A DNA stretch of 64,000 bases from Psococerastis gibbosa (lineage: Eukaryota; Arthropoda; Insecta; Psocodea; Psocidae), in contig OZ020492.1 in NCBI GenBank assembly GCA_963971405.1, positions 16,460,204 through 16,524,203 on the forward strand. The letters run 5' to 3'. Position 1 is the stretch's first letter. Every line of letters starts with the position of its first letter. Of this stretch, positions 4,380 to 63,930 are shown one piece after another. Made by a program: the position numbers and the translations under genes. The notes beneath the pieces are model-generated. The model saw only the letters and a list, made by a program, of their open reading frames with translations. It ran no database searches and was not told where the DNA came from.

Positions 4380-4925
4380 GTTAAAACCATTGATAGACCA
4401 ATAGCTTACAATATTAACTACGGGCTTGTAAAGCCCAGCGATAACAATTCTATTGTAATGTGCATAATATACCGTATCTTGTCTTGGAAATTCATTCATT
4501 CATCGTAAATAAAGCAGTGGTCTAGAGCAGGGGTTCCCAAACTGTGGTCCACATACATATATCAGGTGGTCCATGGAGCAAAGTAAGAAATAAAGAAATA
4601 AAACAGCTGAGTTATTGGAAATTAGAAGTAAAATAGAGTAAGTCTTGGCACTGAACTATAAAATCCAACCGATACCAGTCCTAAACATTTAATCAAATAT
4701 TAGCATGAAATTGTAGGCACAAATCATCCTAGAATTTTACAATTAATTGTCCTGTTACAGCCATGATGGTCCACGGATAATCAAAAAATAATCTAGTGGT
4801 CCACGGACAAAAAAGGTTGGGAACCCCAGGTCTAGAGAAAGGATCATCTACTAGTCCACTGTGTTGCAGTGCCACGGCCTTTTGTTTTGTTTGTTTATAA
4901 CAAATAAGCAGGCGAGAAGCCATGC
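4380..4925 (+). repeat. diverged tandem-repeat unit interrupted by a hAT MITE
   Basis: The segments before 4520 (AAAGCAGTGG) and after 4837 (AAAGGATCATCTACTAGTCC, then TGTTGCAGTGCCACGG) together read as one unit of the preceding 205-bp tandem repeat. The repeat was present before the insertion at 4528-4829. Confidence 0.6.
4528..4829. mobile_element. hAT MITE, 302 bp, with 8-bp target duplication
   Basis: The ends are imperfect inverted repeats: CAGGGGTTCCCAAAC on the left and, reversed, CTGGGGTTCCCAACC on the right, both followed by a copy of GTGGTCCA or GTCCGTGGACC. The flanks GTCTAGAG (4520-4527 and 4830-4837) are a perfect 8-bp duplication, the hAT hallmark. No transposase is encoded. 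A truncated right end of the same family is at about 25195-25235. Confidence 0.93.
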
Positions 4926-10332: not shown

Positions 10333-11290
10333 TTAGCATAGGAAAAGCTTTGTGATGGTTGGCGTTTTTATTTCGAAATTTCAGTGGATACACGTTTTTA
10401 GGTCCCAGGAAAAAAAAGAAAAAAATGTCTTTATTTTCCTTATGGGAGAATTGTGGGCCTTTTGGCCCACTCTTACAATTAACTAATGGAAAGTGGATTT
10501 TACGAAATGTCTATGTCTGTCGGTCTGTCTGTCGGTCTGTCTGTCTGTCGATTTGTCAGCAAACTACACGGCCGATTAATTTATATGAAATTTGGCCTGT
10601 GGGTTCACACAAATCATATCTCGGGCAGGGACGGATCCAGCCCATCCAGATTTTTTTTCTGGGGGGGGGGGGAGGTAGTTGTGTGTCAAAATAGGAAAAA
10701 CAAATGTAGGATCTATTAAATCAGAACGTAATAAATCAATTTACAATAGATTTACCAAATTTTGGGGGGCAGCTACCCCTCCTACCCCCCCTACCTCCAC
10801 CCCCCCCCCCCCTGTATCCGTCCTTGATCTCGGGGAATATATATTGGGCTCAATTTTTGGGGGTTTTACCCCAAAAAAAAAACGGATGAAACATTTTTGT
10901 CAAAAACTGCTCGAACGATTTTTTTTAAATCCACATATATTGTAGTCACTATTAATTTAAACAAATTTCAGTAGGTCACTTGCCCCTTTAGAGTTTGGTT
11001 CTGGGATAAAAAAAAACATCTCATTTTTCATATTTTTCGTTGGAACCTTTCTATCGATGCTTTCTAACTTCAGGCATGTTTTTGGTCTTAAATATAGTAA
11101 CAAAACCGAACAGGTTGCAAAGTTTTGGTTTTTAATAAAAAAGCATTTTTTGAAGAAATTATGGATACATCATACCTTAACACATTGCACACTCTGCTAT
11201 GGTAACTGTTATGTATTGTATTGGTCGGCCCATCTTAGACTATACAAGCGTCCCCTGCGTCCCATCGATCAATTCAGTGCTTAGGATAGG
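10333..11290 (+). repeat. repeat family A, split by a hAT MITE
   Basis: Family A from ATAGGAAAAGCTTTGTGATGG through the GTCT microsatellite (10515-10555) to CACAAATCATATCTCGGG. It resumes at 10827 with ATCTCGGGGAATAT and runs to the distal part near 11290. The interruption is the 201-bp element at 10626-10826. The conserved 3' terminus is missing or decayed. Confidence 0.75.
10626..10826. mobile_element. hAT MITE, 201 bp (family M)
   Basis: Ends CAGGGACGGATCCAG and, reversed, CAAGGACGGATACAG. The 8-bp flanks ATCTCGGG (10618-10625 and 10827-10834) are a perfect duplication and also line up with the interrupted family A sequence. G-rich and C-rich runs sit just inside each end. Family M right ends without a recognised left partner occur at about 35600-35716, 45290-45313 and 59945-59970 (GGGCTGGATCCGTCCCTG). 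Confidence 0.93.
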
Positions 11291-20330: not shown

Positions 20331-20693
20331 TCCTTATATCGATTGTTTAACCATTTCGGCTCATAAATATACACATCGATTATTTTTCAGTATAGGTATA
20401 GATTTTTCCGGGTTCAATAATCCACTATCCAGCGGCGGATTTAGCAATAGACAACTGAGGCATTTCGTAATTTTTTTTAAAGACTTTTATTTAGACCGAG
20501 GCCCATAGGTCCCTTGCCCAATGCGAGCCCATGGATTTCGGACATCATTATGTGTATTGATTCCGATGAATTTTTGGCCATTGGCAAACTTCTATACGTC
20601 CTCGGTATCCGTCTACACCAGCTACAAGCGATAATGGACAAGCTGAGATAAGCTTACCATTGGCGCAGTAAAACAGGCGAATGCATGACTTAA

Positions 20694-23515
20694 CCTCTTC
20701 GTGCATGACAGACTTCCCGCTGAGCTAGATTTTTTATTTTTTGGATTTGGGTCCCTTTGGGTTCCAGAAGTCTCCCTGATTTTTTTCAAAATTTTTCGAC
20801 TACTAGTTTAGCCTAAAAAACCTGTCGTCATGTGAGGACGCCATGCAAAAAGGGTATGGCTTATTTTGTCCACACATGGGGACATCAAATGAAAGGGTAT
20901 GCGATTATTTTAAAAAAAACAGTGTGGCATTGCTGTGAGAACAAAACTGTCTTTAATCTTGAACATACTTATGGACCTTTTTAGAGATAATTATGAAACG
21001 ATTCCATGCACTCAGGACAGACTGGCTCACTACACTTTTTGCAAATATACCTGGTCTTGCTCTTGCAAGTTAGTGCATGGCACCTCGAGGCATTTTTACT
21101 TTCCATCTTTTTGGGGTAGTGGTCGTTTCCATCAAACTTGATTTCTACCGAAACCTTGGCCACACCGGATTTCGTTTTCTTCAGAGGTACTGGGGAATTT
21201 GAAGGTCGCCCCCTCTTCAAGTCCGTGGTTCCTCTGGTTATAAGACTATTGGCAACACTCGCCTTGAAAGCCAGCAGTGATGCGTCCGTCGGAGTAGTTT
21301 GCTTCTTGTACAGCAGCCAGCTGTTCACAATAGAAATATTTAGCAAGTGGAAAAATATTCTTAGGTACCATTTTTTCGACTTGAAGCCGTGTGGGTAGTG
21401 GGCGATCATTCTGTCAACTAAATCCACCCCTCCCATAAACTTATTGTACTCAGCAATTGAATACGGCCGAGCAACTTCAATGCGTGATTTAGACTTGGGG
21501 TCCCAGCGTTTGACTTCATCCTCAGGTTGTGCCCCACAATAGGTGGAAATAGTATGCACTGGTTTCGAGTCTTTCCACCGAACTATGGTGATGTTATCGT
21601 CATTAGTAGTCACAGTATTCCAGCCTCTTTGGAGCAACTTTGCATTAACCAGAGTTTTTTCTGCCGCTTTGGCCCTATTTATCCGAAGGGTGCCAACAAC
21701 AAAAATTTCGTTCTCCCTCAAAGTCTGAAGAAGAACCAGAGAAGTGAATAGATTGTCAATAAAGAGTTTGTGCCCCTTACCGCCAATACCATGACATAGA
21801 CGCAAAACCATGTCCCCTATAGGACCATACACAGTGCGTGGAGCTGTAGTTGACTGATACGGTTCGATACAGTGGACATATCCATCGGCATTAGCTCTGG
21901 CCCAAAACTTAAAGCCCCATTTTGTCGGCTTGTTTTTTATATACTGTTTCAAACCGCTCCTACCCTTAAAAGGCACAATCATCTCATCGATAGCTTGGTG
22001 CTCCATATTATTGCCCGCTGAATGGAACGATGTATGCAGCATCTCGAAAATAGGGCGCAGTGTCCAATATTTGTCAGTGGTGCTCGGTTCGCCGTTATCA
22101 GCGAAATGTAGGAATCTTTTTATGTCTTCGAACCGATTAACAGACATAAAGTCTGCAATGCAGCTCAACCGCAAACCTTTGATACTTGACCAATACATTC
22201 GGCTCCTAGGATATTTTAGATATGTCATAATAATATTTATTCCTAAGTAAACCTGGAGCTCTTTGTATGTAAGTTTCAGCTCCTTACCAGTAATCAAAGC
22301 GTACTTATTGCTCTCTTCAACTATATGATGCATAATATTGTCTGTAAACAAGGCACTGAAGAAATCGTACGGAGTTTTGCCACTAATGGAAATTGCCTCA
22401 CTTCCTGTATATTGAGGTGGCTTATTGGAGAACTCGTTGTCCTTACCAGGATACCATTTCGTGGACACGTTCGGTTTGCTTTTGCTACGAATAAGTTCTA
22501 CAGAAATAGGAATATATTTGAGTTCCCCAATTTTTCGTCGTCTTGGCGGTGGTGTTGTTGTTGATGTTGATGGCGCACTGTCCGGAGAACTAGGGCTAGG
22601 TACGGGTACTGCTATTGAATCGCATATCACTGAAGGCGGTACAGTAGTAAGAACACTGGCAGAAGCAGGCGCAGAAGTAGGAGAAGTTGGCAAATTGGGA
22701 AGATGATCGATGTCTAGTAAATCAAAGATAAGGCTGTCCTCAGCTTCTCTAAGTAACTCGGAAGTCCTAAATATCACTCCGTCAAATGGTTCACGTTCAG
22801 TTTCTGGCTTCTCCCAGCCGTCGTCGTCGCCGTCGTCAGAATCATTATTATCCATGTCAGAACCAGACGGAGGGTCAGCATCTAATGCCATTAGCTCCTC
22901 AATTTCTTTCTGACTCAGCGGTCGTTTATAACCTACAAAAGCAAAAAACAAATCGTTAAATGGACGAAAACAAAGCCAAAGTAGGTATAGCGGCTGTAAA
23001 GTGGGTGCCAAACCTCTAGCGGCCCATTAATAATATTTTGGCTTAATTAACAGTGCGTGCAAAAGCCAGAAATGAATAAAATAAAATGAATTATAATAAG
23101 TAATAATGGCACATTGTTATGTCATGCACGCATGGTGTCCTCAGGTGTGGACACAAGGTCTACCTTCAAAAACACCAAGAGGATAACAAACAAATGGCTT
23201 GCCAACTATTTTGCTGTTATTTAGCACCTATTAGTAGCCTAAAATAAAAATTATGAATCCAAATTATAAAATATTTAATGTATTAAAAAAATACTTACGT
23301 TTGGAAGACATTTAATTTGCAAAAATACAACAAAATTGACTTCAAGCTTCTGGAACGTGTACAAATATCTAAAATATTGAGATGGAGTTGTTTGTTTATT
23401 GTAAATTCATATCGTCTGAAACGATTTCGATAATCGATCGTGGCATCAGACTCGTTTTCGCGCCAATATTCGAAACTTTCTACTGTCCTCACTTGAGGAC
23501 GCATGCATGAAGAGG
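20694..23515 (-). mobile_element. complete piggyBac transposon, 2822 bp
   Basis: TTAA at 20690-20693 and at 23516-23519 flank inverted ends CCTCTTCGTGCATG (left) and CCTCTTCATGCATG (right, reversed). Subterminal motifs also mirror each other: CATGTGAGGACGCCATGC at about 20830 against ACTTGAGGACGCATGC at 23491, and GTCCACACATGGGGAC at 20868 against GTGTCCTCAGGTGTGGACAC at 23137-23156. One intact transposase gene fills the interior on the minus strand. TTAA target, ends and gene together make this a full autonomous-type copy. Confidence 0.96.
20981..23311 (-). CDS. piggyBac transposase (two exons, intact)
   Basis: Cut-and-paste transposase acting at TTAA in the nucleus. Exon 1 is only 13 nt (23311-23299: M-S-S-K plus one base). 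A 366-bp intron (23298-22933) has GTAAGT and TTTTGTAG ends. Exon 2 runs 22932-20981, giving 654 residues starting MSSKRYKRPLSQKEIEEL. The apparent start at 23011 lies in the intron. Residues 1-150 are acidic, then S/T/P-rich. The DDE/DDD domain follows with D320 (IDEMIVPFKGR), D397 (KLFIDNLFTS) and D508 (FMGGVDLVDRM), the family's three catalytic aspartates. The C-terminus is a cysteine-rich zinc-binding domain (CHALTC, CKKC, CPEC), as in piggyBac. No stop or frameshift is present, and all catalytic positions are kept. Confidence 0.95.
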
Positions 23516-23819
23516 TTAACCAAGTACAGATACTAGTCCGACAATGACAACTGAGCCAATGCCTATATCCGCGCGCGCGTATACATTAAAGATTTTTTAT
23601 AAAACAGTATATGCAGAGGTCAAGCAAGGGAAAAACATTTTAGTTAAGGATAAGAAAGTAGGTTATTTCGATTATAAACATTTAAAAAAAAAAATGAAAA
23701 TAGTGATTTATTAGTGAACAACCCCCCCCCCCCCCCTTAGTATACATACAATAATTACTAATGTCTGCGTCAAGGGCAGTGCCTATATCCGAGCTAAGCC
23801 GAATCCGCCCCTGACTATA

Positions 23820-45315: not shown

Positions 45316-46066
45316 ACTCCTATGCATTATGGCATGCCTTGTCATTTACTAATATAGTACGTCCGTCCACCCATTCTAGGCTATGCAATATTATTCCATC
45401 AATCAACCCATTCCTTTAGGATAAGGAAAATTGTTTTAACCTAAATGTACCCATGGGAAAATTATAGAGCCACTTCAATGTACTTATATATAAATCGGAA
45501 ACGGGCTCTCTATTAAGGGACTGGTCCTTAATTGTGAATCTGCCGTCATTTGCTAATAACCGTTAAGTTAGTTGGTACTCACTGCAGTGCCGGGTTTGGC
45601 TATGGGGCACTGTGGGCCCGGGCCCCAGGGCCCCCACAAAAATGGGGCCCCCACAAAACGAAAAAATACAAATAAAAAATTGAAAAAATTAAAAAAAATC
45701 AAAACAGATAACTTTTTAAATTTTCGCGGGAAATTCGAACGCATCGTGGCATTAATGACTCATTTTTGATAAAAATTTAACAAAAAATGAAGTATGTCCA
45801 CTCCTGCTCTGAAACCACGATTGTTTTGCTTCATTAAATACAAATTGAAAATTTGAAATCAAATTTCTAAATTGAAACTACTTTTATCAGCACTTTCTGG
45901 TTGGTATATTGTTAAGGTAAGTAGCATAAGTTAATTCTTATATTAGAGGCGGAAGTACCTAATAGTTGTTCTTTATAAGATAAGGTCCTTATTTTTCGTA
46001 TTCTGCGCCCATTTACCACAATTCACAGAACGCATCAAAACTTTGTAAGCCTATTAATTTTAATAC

Positions 46067-46260
46067 GAAATGTGCCCAGCCACGTGGTCGCCACAAAATC
46101 GAGCACGTTATAAATATAAAATTCATTGGTCTAAAATGTTATATGTCATAAAATGTTATATTATAAGACGCATGATTCGGAATTTTGAGATGTTTTATAC
46201 AAAAGGGGATAAAAAATAAAATGTATTCGATTTTGTGGTGACCACGTGGCTGCACATTTC
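46067..46260. repeat. inverted repeat in the hAT 5' region
   Basis: GAAATGTGCCCAGCCACGTG, GTCGCCACAAAATCGA at the left and, reversed at the right, GAAATGTGCAGCCACGTGGT, CACCACAAAATCGA. Arms of about 36 bp enclose an AT-rich middle. It is either a small MITE that inserted in the transposon or an element-specific regulatory foldback, 110 bp upstream of the transposase start. Confidence 0.75.
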
Positions 46261-46370
46261 ATCTTAAGTAGGGCAATAGGAACAAGTGGACTAGATAATT
46301 AGGCTCTGGCTAGTGAGTTCTGAAAAAACTAATTTATTACAATTTTTATTTTTGATTCCGTAGTGAAATA

Positions 46371-49120
46371 ATGGATCGTCACAAGGGAAAACGCGAATAT
46401 GCAAGCGGCAGTGAAAAGCGGAAAATCGCAGCAGATAAAGAAAACAAAATTCAAGATGTTTTATCTAAAACGCGCCGTATAACGGATTTTGTAACAAAAA
46501 TAGAGACGGGTCCATCTACTCCTAGTTCTACTTCTAATTTTGTTGAAATGATGAGTGGTGATTCTGATTTTCCTGCATCTTCTCAAGTTATTGCTAGCCC
46601 TACCCAAGAGGTAAGAGTTTGACTTTAATTACTTAATTAAGGTGACCGCAATCAAAAATTACCGACCCCACTCACCCCAGTAATTCTTATGGAATTAAAA
46701 ATGGGGGACTCCTGTTAATTTACTGTATGAATTAAACCTACCTAAACTTGAGTCGGCCATGCCGAAAGGATTGTTTACAAAATTAATTACAACTGTAATT
46801 GTTTTACTTGTAGGCAGTAATTGATAACAATGACGAATCCGAAAATACTGCTGATGATGGATTTTGCAAAGAAAATGACGTGGGATTGTGGCCAGCAGTT
46901 CTTAGTCAACAACACATCGACTATTGGATCAAGAAAGGAAATTTGGAAACTCAGCATTGTAATGAAGATATTTTGAAAGAAAAAAGCTTGGGACAAGTAG
47001 ATGCAGTGAAAAGAAGAAAATGCCATGCAAGTTTATTCCTTCGTCAAACTCAGGCAGGCAAGTCTATAAGCCGCTCTTGGTTATGTTTTTCACCTAGTAC
47101 GGGGAAGCTATACTGCTTTTATTGTAAATTGCTCTGCAAATCAGCAAATCAGTTTTCAACTGAAGGGTTTGCTGACTGGAAGCATGCGTCTGAGCGTTTG
47201 AAAAGACATGAAACTACCGTAACGCATTTGCAAATAGTTTGCCAATTTAAGCATCTCTCAAACGAGGCAATGCGTATTGATCGTGAGTTGGCCACACAAG
47301 TGAAGGAGAGCATTGCTTATTGGCGAAACGTTCTAAACAGATTGATTTCCGTCATAATATTTCTTTCTGGACGAGGACTTGCCTTTCGAGGGGACAACGA
47401 AATTTTGGGATCAACCAAAAATGGCAATTATTTGGGAGTCCTTGAGCTAATTGCACAATATGATCCGTTTTTAGTAGGCCACTTAGAGAAGCATGGAAAT
47501 CGTGGCAGTGGTAGTGGCGGCGTTAACTACCTATCTGCCCACATTTGCGAAGAATTAATTGCGCTGATGTCCACCAAAGTTAGCGATGAAATAATTAAAC
47601 GCTTAAAAGCCTGCAAATATTATTCGGTTTCGGTAGATTCAACAACTGACGAAGGCCATATAGATCAAATGACTGTGATTGTCAGGTATCTAGAAGAAAG
47701 CACACCAAAGGAAAGATTTCTTAGTTTTATGCCAAACCAAGGCCATAAAGCTAAAGAATTATTTGATGGCCTCAACAAAGTTTTAAAAAAGTTCGGCCTG
47801 GATTTGAAAGATATTCGTGGGCAGTCGTATGACAATGCTTCCGCTATGAGTGGAGAATATAGTGGTCTACGCACTTTGGTGCTAAATGAGAATCCTTTGG
47901 CTTTATGGGTTCCATGTTTCAATCATTCCCTCAACTTAGTGGGCACAAAAGCGATGGACTCCTGCTCCCAATCGAAATTATTTTTTAGCTTTCTTGAGCA
48001 AATTTATGTATTTTTTACAAGTTCCACAGCTCGGTTCAACGTCCTTTCAAATGTTCTAAAAAGTGCTGCGAAGAAGTATGGCCACAACATACCAGTGCCC
48101 AAAAGAATCAGTTTAACCCGGTGGTCCTCAAGAGCGGAAGCTACTAATAGCCTAGTTTTGGGCTATAACGAAATACGAGAAGTCCTTAAAGATCTCTCCG
48201 AAGAAGATGTCCAAGCAAGTGGACTCTATTTGCAAATTACCACGTTGGAGATAGCAATTTACGCTGTTCTTTGGAACGATATACTGGCAAGGGTGAATGC
48301 AGTAAACATCAATCTCCAGAATCCAAGAATCGACATTAATACTTCGATCAGTGTGATGGAGTCCCTTAAGATCTTCATTGGGGAATTTAGGGATTCTTTC
48401 CAAGAATATGAGAAAAAGGGTGTTGAATTGTGTGGGCACAATTCTTATAAATCGGAAACTTTGCGGAAGCGGATCCGAAATGTGAGGCTAAATCCTTTGG
48501 ATTATGGGAAAACTGAGGAAGCTGAATTCAGTCATAGCGAGAAATTCCGAATCGAAAGTTTCATTCCCATAATTGACCAGTTTATGCAATCATTGGATCG
48601 GAGAATTTCAGCATATGAAGACATAAATAGGAAATTTGGATTTTTACAATATTTAGAAAAAATAAGCCCTGATGATTTGAAAACTAGGGCAGAGAACCTG
48701 GTGAGTTGTTACACAGGTGACTTGGACGGTAACTTGTACTTCGAGCTAGTACAGTTTCGTGAGTTTGTGAAATTATTTGTGATAGATGATGCACAAAAAA
48801 ACAATATAATCGAAGAAAAACGTATCAGTTTTGAACGGTTCATGTACAATTTGATTTTAGAAAGAGGAGTAGCTGATAGCTTTCCCAATGTAGAAGTACT
48901 TTTGAAGATGTACTTAGTTATAATGAGTGGCAACATAAGCAGCGAGCGATCTTTTTCCGTACTAAAACACATAAAAAATCCTCGTCGCACCAGTTCTTCT
49001 GAAGCTCGGCTTAGCCATCTTTCAATGCTGAATATAAATCACGACATAGTGGCAGCGTTAAATTATGACGATATAATTGACAGTTTTGCTGTAATAAAGA
49101 GTCGAAGAGTGCATCTTTAA
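46371..49120 (+). CDS. hAT transposase, ZMYM1/DUF4371-like (two exons, intact)
   Basis: Cut-and-paste transposase. Exon 1 46371-46610 (80 codons, lysine-rich; KRKIAADKEN could be a nuclear signal) ends at GAG|GTAAGAG. The 203-bp intron ends TTACTTGTAG|GCAG at 46813. Exon 2 46814-49120 stays in frame (phase 0), giving 848 residues. A TTF-type zinc finger lies at about 166-220 (C181, C184, H212, H218 in YCFYCK and KRHETTVTH). The hAT core shows D355 (SVDSTTDE), D420 (QSYDNASAMSG), C448/H451 (VPCFNHSLNL) and R516-W517 (SLTRWSSR). The dimerisation region has E at about 791 (SSERSFSVLK). All expected catalytic positions are kept. AATAAA overlaps the stop (49120-49125). Read from exon 2 alone the protein would lack its start. 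The spliced model restores one. Confidence 0.93.
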
Positions 49121-49420
49121 ATAAATTAAAATTTTGTGTTTATAATTAGGTACCTATTAATTTATTCCTTTTAAAAATACACCGCAGTGTCTACAGCTTT
49201 AGTTGAGTAGCCCTTAGGCTTGTATTGTACTATTGACTTGACTTTATATTACTAAGAATCGCTTTTCTTTTTTATAATGATTTTGCAACCTGTGTCACCA
49301 TTTTATAATTTATTGTGGGATATTCGTCTAAGGGGATTAGAAATTTCTCCCCGAGAAAGGGCCCCCACATAATTCGGGCCCACGGGCCCCCACAAGCCCA
49401 AACCCGGCACTGACTCACTG

Positions 49421-51469: not shown

Positions 51470-53026
51470 CAGTGGCGGCTTGTCCATAAGGGCAATGGGG
51501 CTACAGCCCTCCCAAAATTTCACAGGCAAACAAAGTAATTTCCTTTTAATAATAATAATAAAATAATAATCTGGATTTTGAAGAAAAATGCAACTGCTAC
51601 AATTCGGCTATGCTATGTGCGTGCTCGGGGCAACTTGGGGCAATTTGCAATTTAGCCCCGGGTCGCCATGAGAACCGAGTCAGGCAAAAGTTAAGAAGAT
51701 CGTTCGCACCATTGAAAAGGCGCCCATTCCATTGACCGGCTAGGGCTATTTCCAAAAACAGTGACGTGGTAGCAGACATTTAAGACTTAGGTTGCGTTTC
51801 CACCGATCTCGCATTGCAGAATGCATATGACATTGACGGAAATTAGAATTTTTCTTTTTGTAGAAATCTATTAAAATGTTTGTACTTAATATATCCCATG
51901 ACGCCATTTTTTAATTTTAGTTTGTTTGTTTGTGATTTTACTGTATGATCACTTATCAATTTTAACTATGGCATAGAGGAAAATAAACATTTCCGTCAAT
52001 TCTGCAATGCGAGGTTGGTGGAAACCCCACCTAAGTCTTGAATGTATGCTACCAAGTCACTGTTTTTGTAAATAGCCCTAGCCGGTCGGTGGAATGGGCA
52101 CCATAGAGTAAAATCACAAACAAACAAACTAAAATTAAAAAATTTCGTCATGGGATATGTTAAGAACAAACATTTTAATAGATGTCTATGAAAAGAAAAA
52201 CAAACATTTCCGTCAATGTCATTTGCATTCTGCAATGCGAGATCGGTGGAAACGCCACCTAAGTCTTGAATGTCTGTTACCACGTCACCGTATTTGTATT
52301 TAGCCCTAGCCAGTCGGTGGAAACCCCACCTTAGCATGTACACAAGGGGTATTCACTATCCGGTATTCAGCATGACAACCCGTGTTAAATATGTTATATC
52401 GAGAAACCCATTCTCGTTCATCCATGAAAACAATGGAAGCAAGGCACTGAAATTTAGCGAACCCTGAGGTTCGCTAAATCCAGCGAGGTCGGTGGAAACG
52501 CCACCTAAGTCTTGAATGTCTGCTACCACGTCACCGTTGTTGGAAATAGCCCTAGCCGGTCAATGGAATGGGCACCAAAGGTGTACATAACTTTTCTCTT
52601 ATGGACCTTGCAATGCAATTCCTGGCATATGCATTAATACATGGGCAGCGGGGCGGCGCCCCAAAAATGACTTTAAATGTTTCGTATTAATAATATCGTT
52701 GAATATTGGTATTTTTTTAAAATCATAATTTTAATAATTATTTTTGAGAAGAGTTTCACTATTTTGTCATGAGTGATGATTATTATAAAATTTTTCAAGG
52801 AACAATTTTTGACTAGGGAAGTCAGGTTCTGCCCAACGGCCAGGCAAACTCGCCAAGCTCCCAATGTAAACAAATATTACAAAAATGTAAACAGCGAGTG
52901 ATAAGACCTATTTGCCACATCGAAATGCCGAAGAATCTATTTGATATTCAAGTAGTGGTAAGTTAAAGGTATTACTAGTTTACAATTTGTTGCCCCACCA
53001 TTTTGATACACCACGAGCCGCCACTG
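51470..53026. mobile_element. hAT element, 1557 bp, carrying Harbinger MITEs
   Basis: Ends CAGTGGCGGCT and exact reverse complement AGCCGCCACTG, with a perfect 8-bp duplication GACCTATC (51462-51469, 53027-53034). Roughly 860 bp of the interior is Harbinger family C sequence. The remaining ~700 bp is AT-rich and has no transposase, so it is a non-autonomous hAT that later received MITEs, or captured them. Confidence 0.94.
51719..52481. repeat. left arm of a 763-bp inverted duplication
   Basis: Contains a full family C MITE (51719-52102), a partial one (52103-52336) ending GGAAACCCCACCTTA, and about 145 bp not seen outside the pair that end in the palindrome TTTAGCGAACC-CTGA-GGTTCGCTAAA. The whole segment recurs inverted, with exactly the same length, at 58171-58933. 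52485-52578 adds another half MITE outside the duplicated segment. Confidence 0.92.
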
Positions 53027-62112: not shown

Positions 62113-63174
62113 TCTTGCAGTGCCACTGCTTTAAGGTCGCTCGATAAGCGGAAGCTTGAGCGTGATAATTATGCTTATAAGAAATTACTGGTCAAAGAAA
62201 AAAAGTGAAGTGAAAAAATTATTATTATTATTATAAATTATAAATTTATTATTGTATTGTATTCTTTATATTATAATATGCTCCCAGTGCTGGGGGTACA
62301 GGCTGGGAAAAATTGTTAATTAAATTTTATTTCTTGCAGTGCCACTGCTTTAAGATCGCTCGATAAGCGGAAGTTTGAGCGTGATAATTATGTTTATAAC
62401 AAATTTCTGGTCAAAGAGAAAAAGTGAAGTGAAGTGAAAAAAATTATTATTATTATTATTATTATAAATTATAAATTTATTATTGTATTGTATTCTTTAT
62501 ATTATAATATGTTCCCAGTGCTGGGGGTACAGGCTGGGAAAAATTGTTAATTAAATTTTATTTCTTGCAGTGCCACTGCTTTAAGATCGCTCGATAAGCG
62601 GAAGTTTGAGCGTGATAATTATGTTTATAACAAATTTCTGGTCAAAGAAAAAAAGTAAAGTGAAAAAATTATTATTATTATTATAAATTATAAATTTATT
62701 ATTGTATTATATTCTTTATATTATAATATGCTCCCAGTGCTGGGGGTACAGGCTGGGAAAAATTGTTAATTAAATTTTATTTCTTGCAGTGCCACTGCTT
62801 TAAGATCGCTCGATAAGCGGAAGTTTGAGCGTGATAATTATGTTTATAACAAATTTCTGGTCAAAGAGAAAAAGTGAAGTGAAGTGAAAAAAATTATTAT
62901 TATTATTATTATTATAAATTATAAATTTATTATTGTATTGTATTCTTTATATTATAATATGTTCCCAGTGCTGGGGGTACAGGCTGGGAAAAATTGTTAA
63001 TTAAATTTTATTTCTTGCAGTGCCACTGCTTTAAGATCGCTCGATAAGCGGAAGTTTGAGCGTGATAATTATGTTTATAACAAATTACTAGTCAAAGAAA
63101 AAAAGTGAAGTGAAGTGAAAAAAATTATTATTATTTTTATAAATTATAAATTTATTATTGTATTGTATTCTTTA

Positions 63175-63930
63175 CTTTACTTTACTTTATCCGCGCCATA
63201 TCCCTTCGGAGGGGTCGGCGACTTGGATCTTCTTCTTCCACGCAATACGGTTTTCGGTGTCCTCTATGGTCAGGTTCAAGGTACTCAGGTCTTGTGCTAC
63301 CTTCGTCTCCAGGGTCAGCTTGGGTCGGCCTCTCGGTCTCCTGCCCTCCACGACGTAGTTCTCCACTCGGTACAACAGGTGTCCATCTTCCCTCCGTTTT
63401 GTATGTCCCCACCATGCCAGGCGCCGTTCTCTCGCCTTATCTACAATGCTGGCTGTACTAATATTTGCCCTGATGTCTTCATTCCTCCTCCTATCAGACA
63501 GCTTGCAGCCGATCGAATACCGGAGCATCCTCATCTCTGCGACATGTAAAAGGTTTTCTTCGCATTTCTTTAATGGCCAACATTCCGCACCATACAGCAT
63601 TGCAGGTCTCACCACCTGCTTGTAAATTCTGCCTTTGAGTTTTTTGGGCATTTTCTTGTCTTTCAGAATTCCAGACATATCTCTCCATTTGCTCCACCCA
63701 ACATTAATCCTGGCTCTCACATCATCTTCACAGCCCCCGTTTTCGTTTAGGATCGATCCTAGGTATTTAAACGTCGTCGCCTTCTGGAGTTCCTGGTCAT
63801 CTATTCGGATTGTTCCTGCCTCTTGTGTAAGGCATTCCATATACTCAGTTTTCTTTCGGTTCACTTTTAATCCTTGGTCTTCCATGATCTCCACCCATCT
63901 TTGGAGGGCCCTTTCTGCTTCTTCTCGGGA
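63175..63930 (-). mobile_element. 5'-truncated RTE retrotransposon insertion
   Basis: ATTGTATTCTTTA occurs at 63162-63174 and 63931-63943, a perfect 13-bp target duplication. On the minus strand the element ends in a short (TAAAG)n tail just before it. RTE elements typically end in such short tandem tails and are often 5'-truncated. The surrounding tandem unit reads through cleanly when the insertion is removed. Confidence 0.93.
63187..63927 (-). pseudogene. RTE reverse transcriptase, C-terminal third, frame intact
   Basis: Open from the truncation point (SREEAERALQRWVEIMEDQG) to the stop at 63187. It contains GLKVNRKKTEYM just after where YADD should be, KYLGSILNENGG, RPAMLYGAECWPLKK, LHVAEMRMLRYSIGCKLSDR, RLAWWGHTKRRED, GRRPRGRPKLTLETK and the terminal D-P-S-E-G-I-W-R-G. 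The endonuclease and RT active site are absent because of truncation, so it cannot function. The unbroken frame shows that the insertion is young. The N-terminal methionine at 63894 is internal, not a real start. Confidence 0.88.

Follow-up and report, generated by a model that had tools for sequence, protein, structure and literature searches.

The 64,000-nucleotide stretch of Psococerastis gibbosa DNA analysed here, hereafter called the window (assembly GCA_963971405.1, contig OZ020492.1, positions 16,460,204 to 16,524,203 of the forward strand), carries a 3828-bp hAT element at positions 45585-49412, or 45577-49420 when the flanking duplication is included. The first 15 bases of the element (CAGTGCCGGGTTTGG) are the reverse complement of its last 15 without a mismatch, the same 8 bp, ACTCACTG, lie on either side of it, and GGGCCC-rich subterminal repeats (D1, D2, D4 and I6 of the repeat analysis) are found just inside both ends (Table 1). 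The 15-bp inverted ends and the length of 3828 bp fit the ranges of 10-25 bp and 2.5-5 kb described for hAT elements (PMC3942097). A previous reading of this DNA from its letters alone (the sequence-only reading) had proposed an intact, recently inserted transposon with matching inverted ends and GGGCCC-rich subterminal regions. Our analysis confirmed these end structures together with the coordinates, the reading frame and the perfect 8-bp duplication, which itself lies outside the interval 45585..49412.

The transposase gene appears to consist of two exons. Joining 46610 to 46814 yields a protein of 848 amino acids (aa) with no stop, in agreement with the spliced frame proposed earlier. When donors at 46601-46625 were combined with acceptors at 46780-46900, one further open join was obtained, with a donor six bases later (after 46616) and a product of 850 aa; since two joins are open in the tested range, the sequence alone leaves the donor unfixed. 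An AATAAA motif starts on the final base of the stop codon.

Exon 2 contains a Pfam DUF4371 match (E 9.4e-20), and its zinc-finger-like region matches zf-C17orf113 below the cut-off of that family (E 0.0053). A DUF4371 search of the same genome revealed a relative at locus L113 (protein P0002), with an 850-aa open frame 28% identical to exon 2. Alignment of the two conserves, in exon-2 numbering, D275, D340, C368-x2-H371, R436-W437, E711 and the C101/C104/H132/H138 set; D275, D340 and E711 form the putative catalytic triad, assigned by analogy with Hermes. When this two-sequence alignment was used as a profile (A1) against the Protein Data Bank, four Hermes transposase sequences were recovered (structures 4d1q, 2bw3, 6dww and 8edg, E 1.5e-5 to 6.6e-4), followed by three unrelated chains (E 0.017-0.059). 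The printed alignment to the best chain, 4d1q (E 1.5e-5), spans the RW and SERxFS regions. Exon 2 alone, searched against solved structures, returned just one unrelated chain (E 0.51). DUF4371 and the Hermes-like RW and SERxFS regions thus bear out the assignment to hAT.

Table 1. Features of the hAT element; positions are those of the window.
Feature	Position	Strand	Remark
Left target-site duplication ACTCACTG	45577..45584	none	
Left terminal inverted repeat CAGTGCCGGGTTTGG, 15 bp, perfect	45585..45599	+	repeat I5
Left subterminal repeats, GGGCCC-rich	45603..45663	+	D1, D2, D4, I6
Transposase exon 1 (predicted), 80 aa	46371..46610	+	no Pfam match
Inferred GT-AG intron, 203 bp	46611..46813	+	from the open frame; alternative start 46617 gives 850 aa
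Transposase exon 2 (predicted) with stop, 768 aa	46814..49120	+	DUF4371 covers exon-2 residues 114-351; hAT dimerisation region matched weakly at 678-742
Zinc-finger-like C-x2-C...H-x5-H (exon-2 C101, C104, H132, H138)	47114..47227	+	kept in P0002
Putative first catalytic Asp, exon-2 D275 (protein D355)	47636..47638	+	kept in P0002
Putative second catalytic Asp, exon-2 D340 (protein D420)	47831..47833	+	kept in P0002
CxxH (exon-2 C368-x2-H371), downstream of the putative second Asp	47915-47926		kept in aligned relative
RW motif, exon-2 R436-W437	48119..48124	+	aligned by profile A1 to Hermes TRWNS
Putative catalytic Glu in SSERSFS, exon-2 E711 (protein E791)	48944..48946	+	aligned by profile A1 to Hermes AASERTFS
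Right subterminal repeats, GGGCCC-rich	49358..49402	+	repeat analysis
Right terminal inverted repeat	49398..49412	-	
Right target-site duplication ACTCACTG	49413..49420	none	

Upstream of exon 1, at 46060-46267, the element also contains an imperfect 60-nt inverted repeat (73%) and further arms (I1, I9), which may represent an older foldback sequence, nested in the element and now carried along.

Copies of the element in the genome

The single intact copy in the window is part of a larger finding, a burst of about 170 copies. Exact 40-mer searches of the genome (G000; 409 Mb, 68 contigs) returned the left end of the element 170 times and the right end 169 times; the end pattern read backwards, used as a control, returned no match. 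Pairing was carried out on the first 100 left and first 100 right ends listed, which lie on contigs C1, C2, C3, C12 and part of C13. Among these matches we recognised 97 left/right pairs, with three of each end unpaired. Seventy-seven of the 97 pairs span exactly 3828 bp and nine deviate by at most 17 bp; the others measure 4043 bp (one), 13,622 bp (one, L061) and 780-3694 bp (nine).

Thirty-nine scored copies (of 914 candidates) are 100% identical over 3812 bp each, and 39 of 40 copies examined in full, window included, share the exact 3828 letters. These 40 are not a random draw, as 39 of them are the scored candidates of the match search. A second sample consisted of the 30 left-end copies that come first in positional order, with 1540 element bases each. 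Here 23 copies were identical throughout, and 7 substitutions were counted in 43,758 aligned bases, alignment edges excluded. L041 accounts for four of these, two of them next to the junction of its deletion, and L053, L061 and L065 for one apiece. Near-identical copies, which the sequence-only reading had suggested looking for, are therefore abundant, with most examined ones identical, and the opposite outcome that it had considered, a genome holding nothing but old and diverged relatives, was not observed.

The intron is conserved to the same degree. A search with its first 200 bases, allowing up to 3 mismatches, gave 153 matches in a list apparently ordered by mismatch count, and at least 100 places showed no mismatch. 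Contigs C1-C3 carry 69 exact left ends, and 62 of these copies match the 200 bases exactly. Of the seven outside the exact list, L041, L058, L061 and L068 have lost or split the intron, two are internally deleted (C2:29026608 and C2:41617002) and one is 3844 bp long (C3:19778368). Because the intron is no more changed than the exons, the identity of the copies is not due to protein selection.

The coding frame is likewise preserved. In the DUF4371 search, in which 150 rows of 476 candidates were scored, 99 rows belonged to the element's family by score. None of the 99 contained a stop, and in 96 the exon-2 frame was 768 aa long (445, 769 and 770 aa in the others), which supports the intactness claimed for the element. 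At least 57 of the 69 C1-C3 copies have the exon-2 frame at full length. No DUF4371 row was scored for ten copies, namely seven pairs of 780-3694 bp, L068, C3:29048255 (one base short) and L066, whose right end is not among the matches listed.

Few copies deviate from the common sequence. L040 contains a 6-bp tandem duplication, L053 a 5-bp insertion along with its substitution, and L041 and L058 internal deletions; L068 ends at base 707, directly before its own duplication, AAGAAGAC. L061 (C2:11166664, minus strand) owes its length to a 9.8-kb insertion in the intron and shows two edge mismatches besides its one substitution. L039 (C1:12762271-12766698) is otherwise identical, with its last base changed and no clean duplication, its flanks offering just an imperfect match, CAATAGCC/CAATAGGC, displaced by a few bases. 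The nine short pairs and L068 are forms that interrupted repair after excision could produce.

Duplications, empty sites and target preference

Perfect 8-bp duplications flank 64 of the 69 C1-C3 copies: 37 among the full copies, 26 of the 27 C1-C3 pairs in a further set, and L058. Matching duplications were found in 27 of the 28 copies of that further set. The five remaining C1-C3 copies comprise L033 and L050, whose duplications are reciprocally exchanged, the truncated L068, the aberrant L039, and L066, whose right end is not among the matches listed. Including the window copy and one copy on C12, the verified duplications number 66, no two of them alike, and the 8 bases of all 88 left flanks compared differ from one another. 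Identical copies with perfect and uniformly distinct duplications support the recent insertion proposed by the sequence-only reading.

When the two flanks of each copy were joined, 6 of 39 copies matched sequence across the junction in the examined DNA, and the three best were inspected. For L029, a repeat at window positions 63173-63713 (plus strand) is 98.9% identical over 541 bp and contains the target ATGCCAGG once, forming a paralogous empty site. A minus-strand frame overlapping this repeat gives a weak RVT_1 match (E 9e-4), below the cut-off. The joined flanks of L004 have a match of about 94% that contains the target once, and those of L003 a match of 84% in which the target differs at two bases. 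Furthermore, the copy at C13:40399334 (L114, L115) lies within the second exon of another copy and is flanked on each side by CTGATGAT; the window copy holds CTGATGAT once and is the empty counterpart of this self-insertion. The left end of the outer copy is not at its expected place (L116). Empty sites were thus obtained both as a paralogous site (L029) and as a filled/empty pair within the element itself.

We observed that insertions favor nnTnnAnn, as a preference and not as a rule. The 88 left flanks used for this comparison come from 65 verified pairs, L058, L066, L068 and 20 left-only ends (L033, L039 and L050 were excluded), and the expected frequency of T and of A, taken from the window, is 0.31 each. 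T occupies position 3 in 43 of 88 flanks (p 8e-4) and A position 6 in 39 (p 8e-3), these single-position values being uncorrected for the positions tried, and both occur together in 21 flanks against 8.5 expected (p 8e-5). T is rare at position 4 (12/88, p 2e-4). The trend was first noticed in 38 sites and recurred in 51 others. Exceptions include the duplication of the window copy (ACTCACTG), which has T3 without A6, and that of the self-insertion (CTGATGAT), which has neither. The target features of two other hAT groups were not seen: the Buster pattern T4A5 occurs in 3 flanks against 8.5 expected, and the Hermes pattern of the Ac group, T2A7, in 14 against 8.5 (p 0.07), with T2 alone (31/88) and A7 alone (33/88) near background.

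Nature and age of the element

These observations indicate that the element is very probably a complete, likely autonomous DNA transposon of the hAT superfamily, perhaps of Tip type, which has spread through the genome very recently and may still move. Its spliced gene would encode an 848-aa DDE (Asp-Asp-Glu) transposase, which would recognise the 15-bp ends and probably also the GGGCCC-rich subterminal repeats, excise the element and join it to a new site by cuts 8 bp apart, preferably at nnTnnAnn; filling of the gaps would then create the 8-bp duplication. Such cut-and-paste movement with an 8-bp stagger is expected from family membership and is consistent with what was observed directly, namely duplications, empty sites, a self-insertion and deletion derivatives. 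Several points weigh against this interpretation. The Pfam Dimer_Tnp_hAT match stays below its cut-off (17.5 vs 21.4 bits), the two Hermes segments are individually weak (i-Evalues 1.5 and 0.049), and both AlphaFold2 models, built from one and from two sequences, have a mean predicted local distance difference test (pLDDT) score of 34.1 and 33.7, too poor to be used for the RNase H-like fold of hAT transposases. Moreover, the Tip placing is weak, and copy identity indicates recent, not present, movement.

At an insect mutation rate of 2.9e-9 per site and generation, 7 substitutions in 43,758 bases translate into a mean age of roughly 55,000 generations (range 22,000-114,000). This value should be read as an approximate upper estimate, because 23 of the 30 copies show no substitution and two of the seven that were counted adjoin a deletion junction.

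All of the sequence comes from one assembly, and identical copies might in principle reflect duplication of a single sequence by the assembler, or segmental duplication, instead of movement. However, all 66 verified duplications and all 88 left flanks differ, and filled/empty pairs exist, which makes this explanation extremely improbable. Gene conversion holding old insertions identical would fit the unchanged intron, for which protein selection offers no cause, but duplications lie outside the element and should have decayed, and on C1-C3 perfect ones still flank 64 of the 69 copies. Graded variants would also be expected under conversion, whereas left ends fall into 170 exact matches, none with one mismatch and 75 with two or three; we consider gene conversion very unlikely. 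A recent amplification that has since been silenced, for instance by small RNAs, would leave copies intact but inactive, and the internal deletions, the 9.8-kb intron insertion and the few substitutions do show that some time has elapsed. Against this stand at least 39 copies that differ at none of their 3828 bp, although such identity is compatible with silencing if it was recent, and we regard a silenced family as a real possibility, though not the probable one.

A similar question concerns L033 (plus) and L050 (minus), which lie in inverted orientation 5.4 kb apart (C1:33137541-33150597) and are flanked by CAGCTAAA/AGTACCCG and AGTACCCG/CAGCTAAA, respectively. This exchange suggests an element-mediated inversion by recombination between inverted copies. 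Identical 3.8-kb inverted copies at such a distance are hard for assemblers, and a mis-oriented segment with no real inversion could give the same picture. Nevertheless, 64 of the 67 other C1-C3 copies have perfect duplications, so that junctions are generally sound, and in the account of Galileo in Drosophila the same exchanged pattern is taken as a mark of ectopic recombination (PMC2775673). Mis-assembly is therefore a doubtful explanation, albeit one that carries appreciable weight.

Relatives and neighbouring sequences

The element is best read as a new family of a well-known kind, hAT, unusual in its number of intact identical copies. A literature search found no published description of it, which is no proof that it is undescribed. 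No confirmed relatives were found in viral contigs (protein, profile A1 and left-end DNA) or genome contigs (protein), collections of viral and prokaryotic sequence that are silent on other animals.

The possible Tip placing is a lead from DUF4371, a domain shared with BuT2 of Drosophila buzzatii. As described, BuT2 and the Tip group resemble the element in that their target duplications measure 8 bp, their inverted ends are short, and their transposase is spliced and contains DUF4371 together with an hAT dimerisation region; BuT2 also resembles it in its short deletion derivatives, found in D. willistoni (PMC3942097). BuT2 differs in length (2775 vs 3828 bp), ends (12 vs 15 bp), predicted exons (five vs two) and protein (643 vs 848 aa), and few full-length copies of it are described, unlike the element here; horizontal transfer has been proposed for BuT2 (PMC3942097). 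Tip100 of Ipomoea, compared here by description, is likewise a hAT element with 8-bp duplications and is reported to be active in medaka, in a study that analysed three insertion sites (PMC12511174). Hermes of Musca domestica shares the RW and SERxFS regions by profile alignment (whole-sequence E 1.5e-5), but its target is given as nTnnnnAn (PMC10512250), a pattern that is less frequent here than T3A6 (14 vs 21 of 88). The Buster group (TcBuster, Mar) consists of hAT elements with 8-bp duplications as well, and differs in its nnnTAnnn target (PMC3517528, PMC10512250). Harbinger-Snek of sea kraits offers a parallel as a DNA transposon with explosive expansion in one lineage; it belongs to another superfamily, and horizontal arrival is established for Harbinger-Snek only (PMC8437027).

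The genome itself holds more distant kin. With up to 3 mismatches, the left 28 bases gave 245 matches against 170 exact ones. A search with a non-consensus position 16 and 2 mismatches gave 170 matches, explained by the exact copies alone. The other 75 left ends therefore differ at two or three bases, and none differs at exactly one; none of the 75 lies in the DNA examined. The near-matching ends appear to form a discrete related group. We also noted a second DUF4371 family (for example C2:13100618-13101235), with at least 36 equal-scoring rows, no stop and a 732-aa frame in at least 32; it is apparently another recent burst, to which the 75 ends may or may not belong. Going further, we tentatively suggest, as a conjecture and not as our expectation, that two or more DUF4371 hAT families (that of about 170 copies and the 732-aa family) are invading the genome at once, that nnTnnAnn, the preference of the former, is maybe the missing Tip signature and that recombination between its copies has already remodelled chromosomes.

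Most DNA transposons in animal genomes are regarded as decayed remains. About 170 copies, most examined ones intact and indistinguishable, provide a case for studying how hAT elements spread, and bear on the pace at which deletion derivatives arise (nine of the 97 pairs among the matches listed), the timing of host silencing and the origin of inversions; the element is, in addition, a candidate tool for gene transfer. Provided that it does belong to the Tip group, its insertion sites bear on the target preference of Tip-type elements, which is described as not investigated (PMC3942097).

When the window was scanned for CAGnG ends that lie 80-5000 bp apart and carry 8-bp duplications, three other pairs came up; each shows 1-2 mismatches over its first 14 bases, and all have other ends. 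This agrees with the remark of the sequence-only reading that the element's ends are unlike those of the other hAT sequences in the window, and its suggestion that the element might supply them with transposase is not supported, as the ends differ. The best candidate non-autonomous hAT element lies at 51470-53026 (1557 bp; ends CAGTGGCGGCTTGT with 1 mismatch, duplication GACCTATC), and weaker candidates at 4528-4829 and 10626-10826. The window contains no tRNA and no Rfam match. A piggyBac-like element at 20690-23519 (minus strand), with TTAA ends and 13-bp inverted repeats (1 mismatch), carries a 681-aa open frame that matches DDE_Tnp_1_7 (E 3.7e-78) and, weakly and at the C terminus, a zinc-finger model; this element is possibly intact as well.

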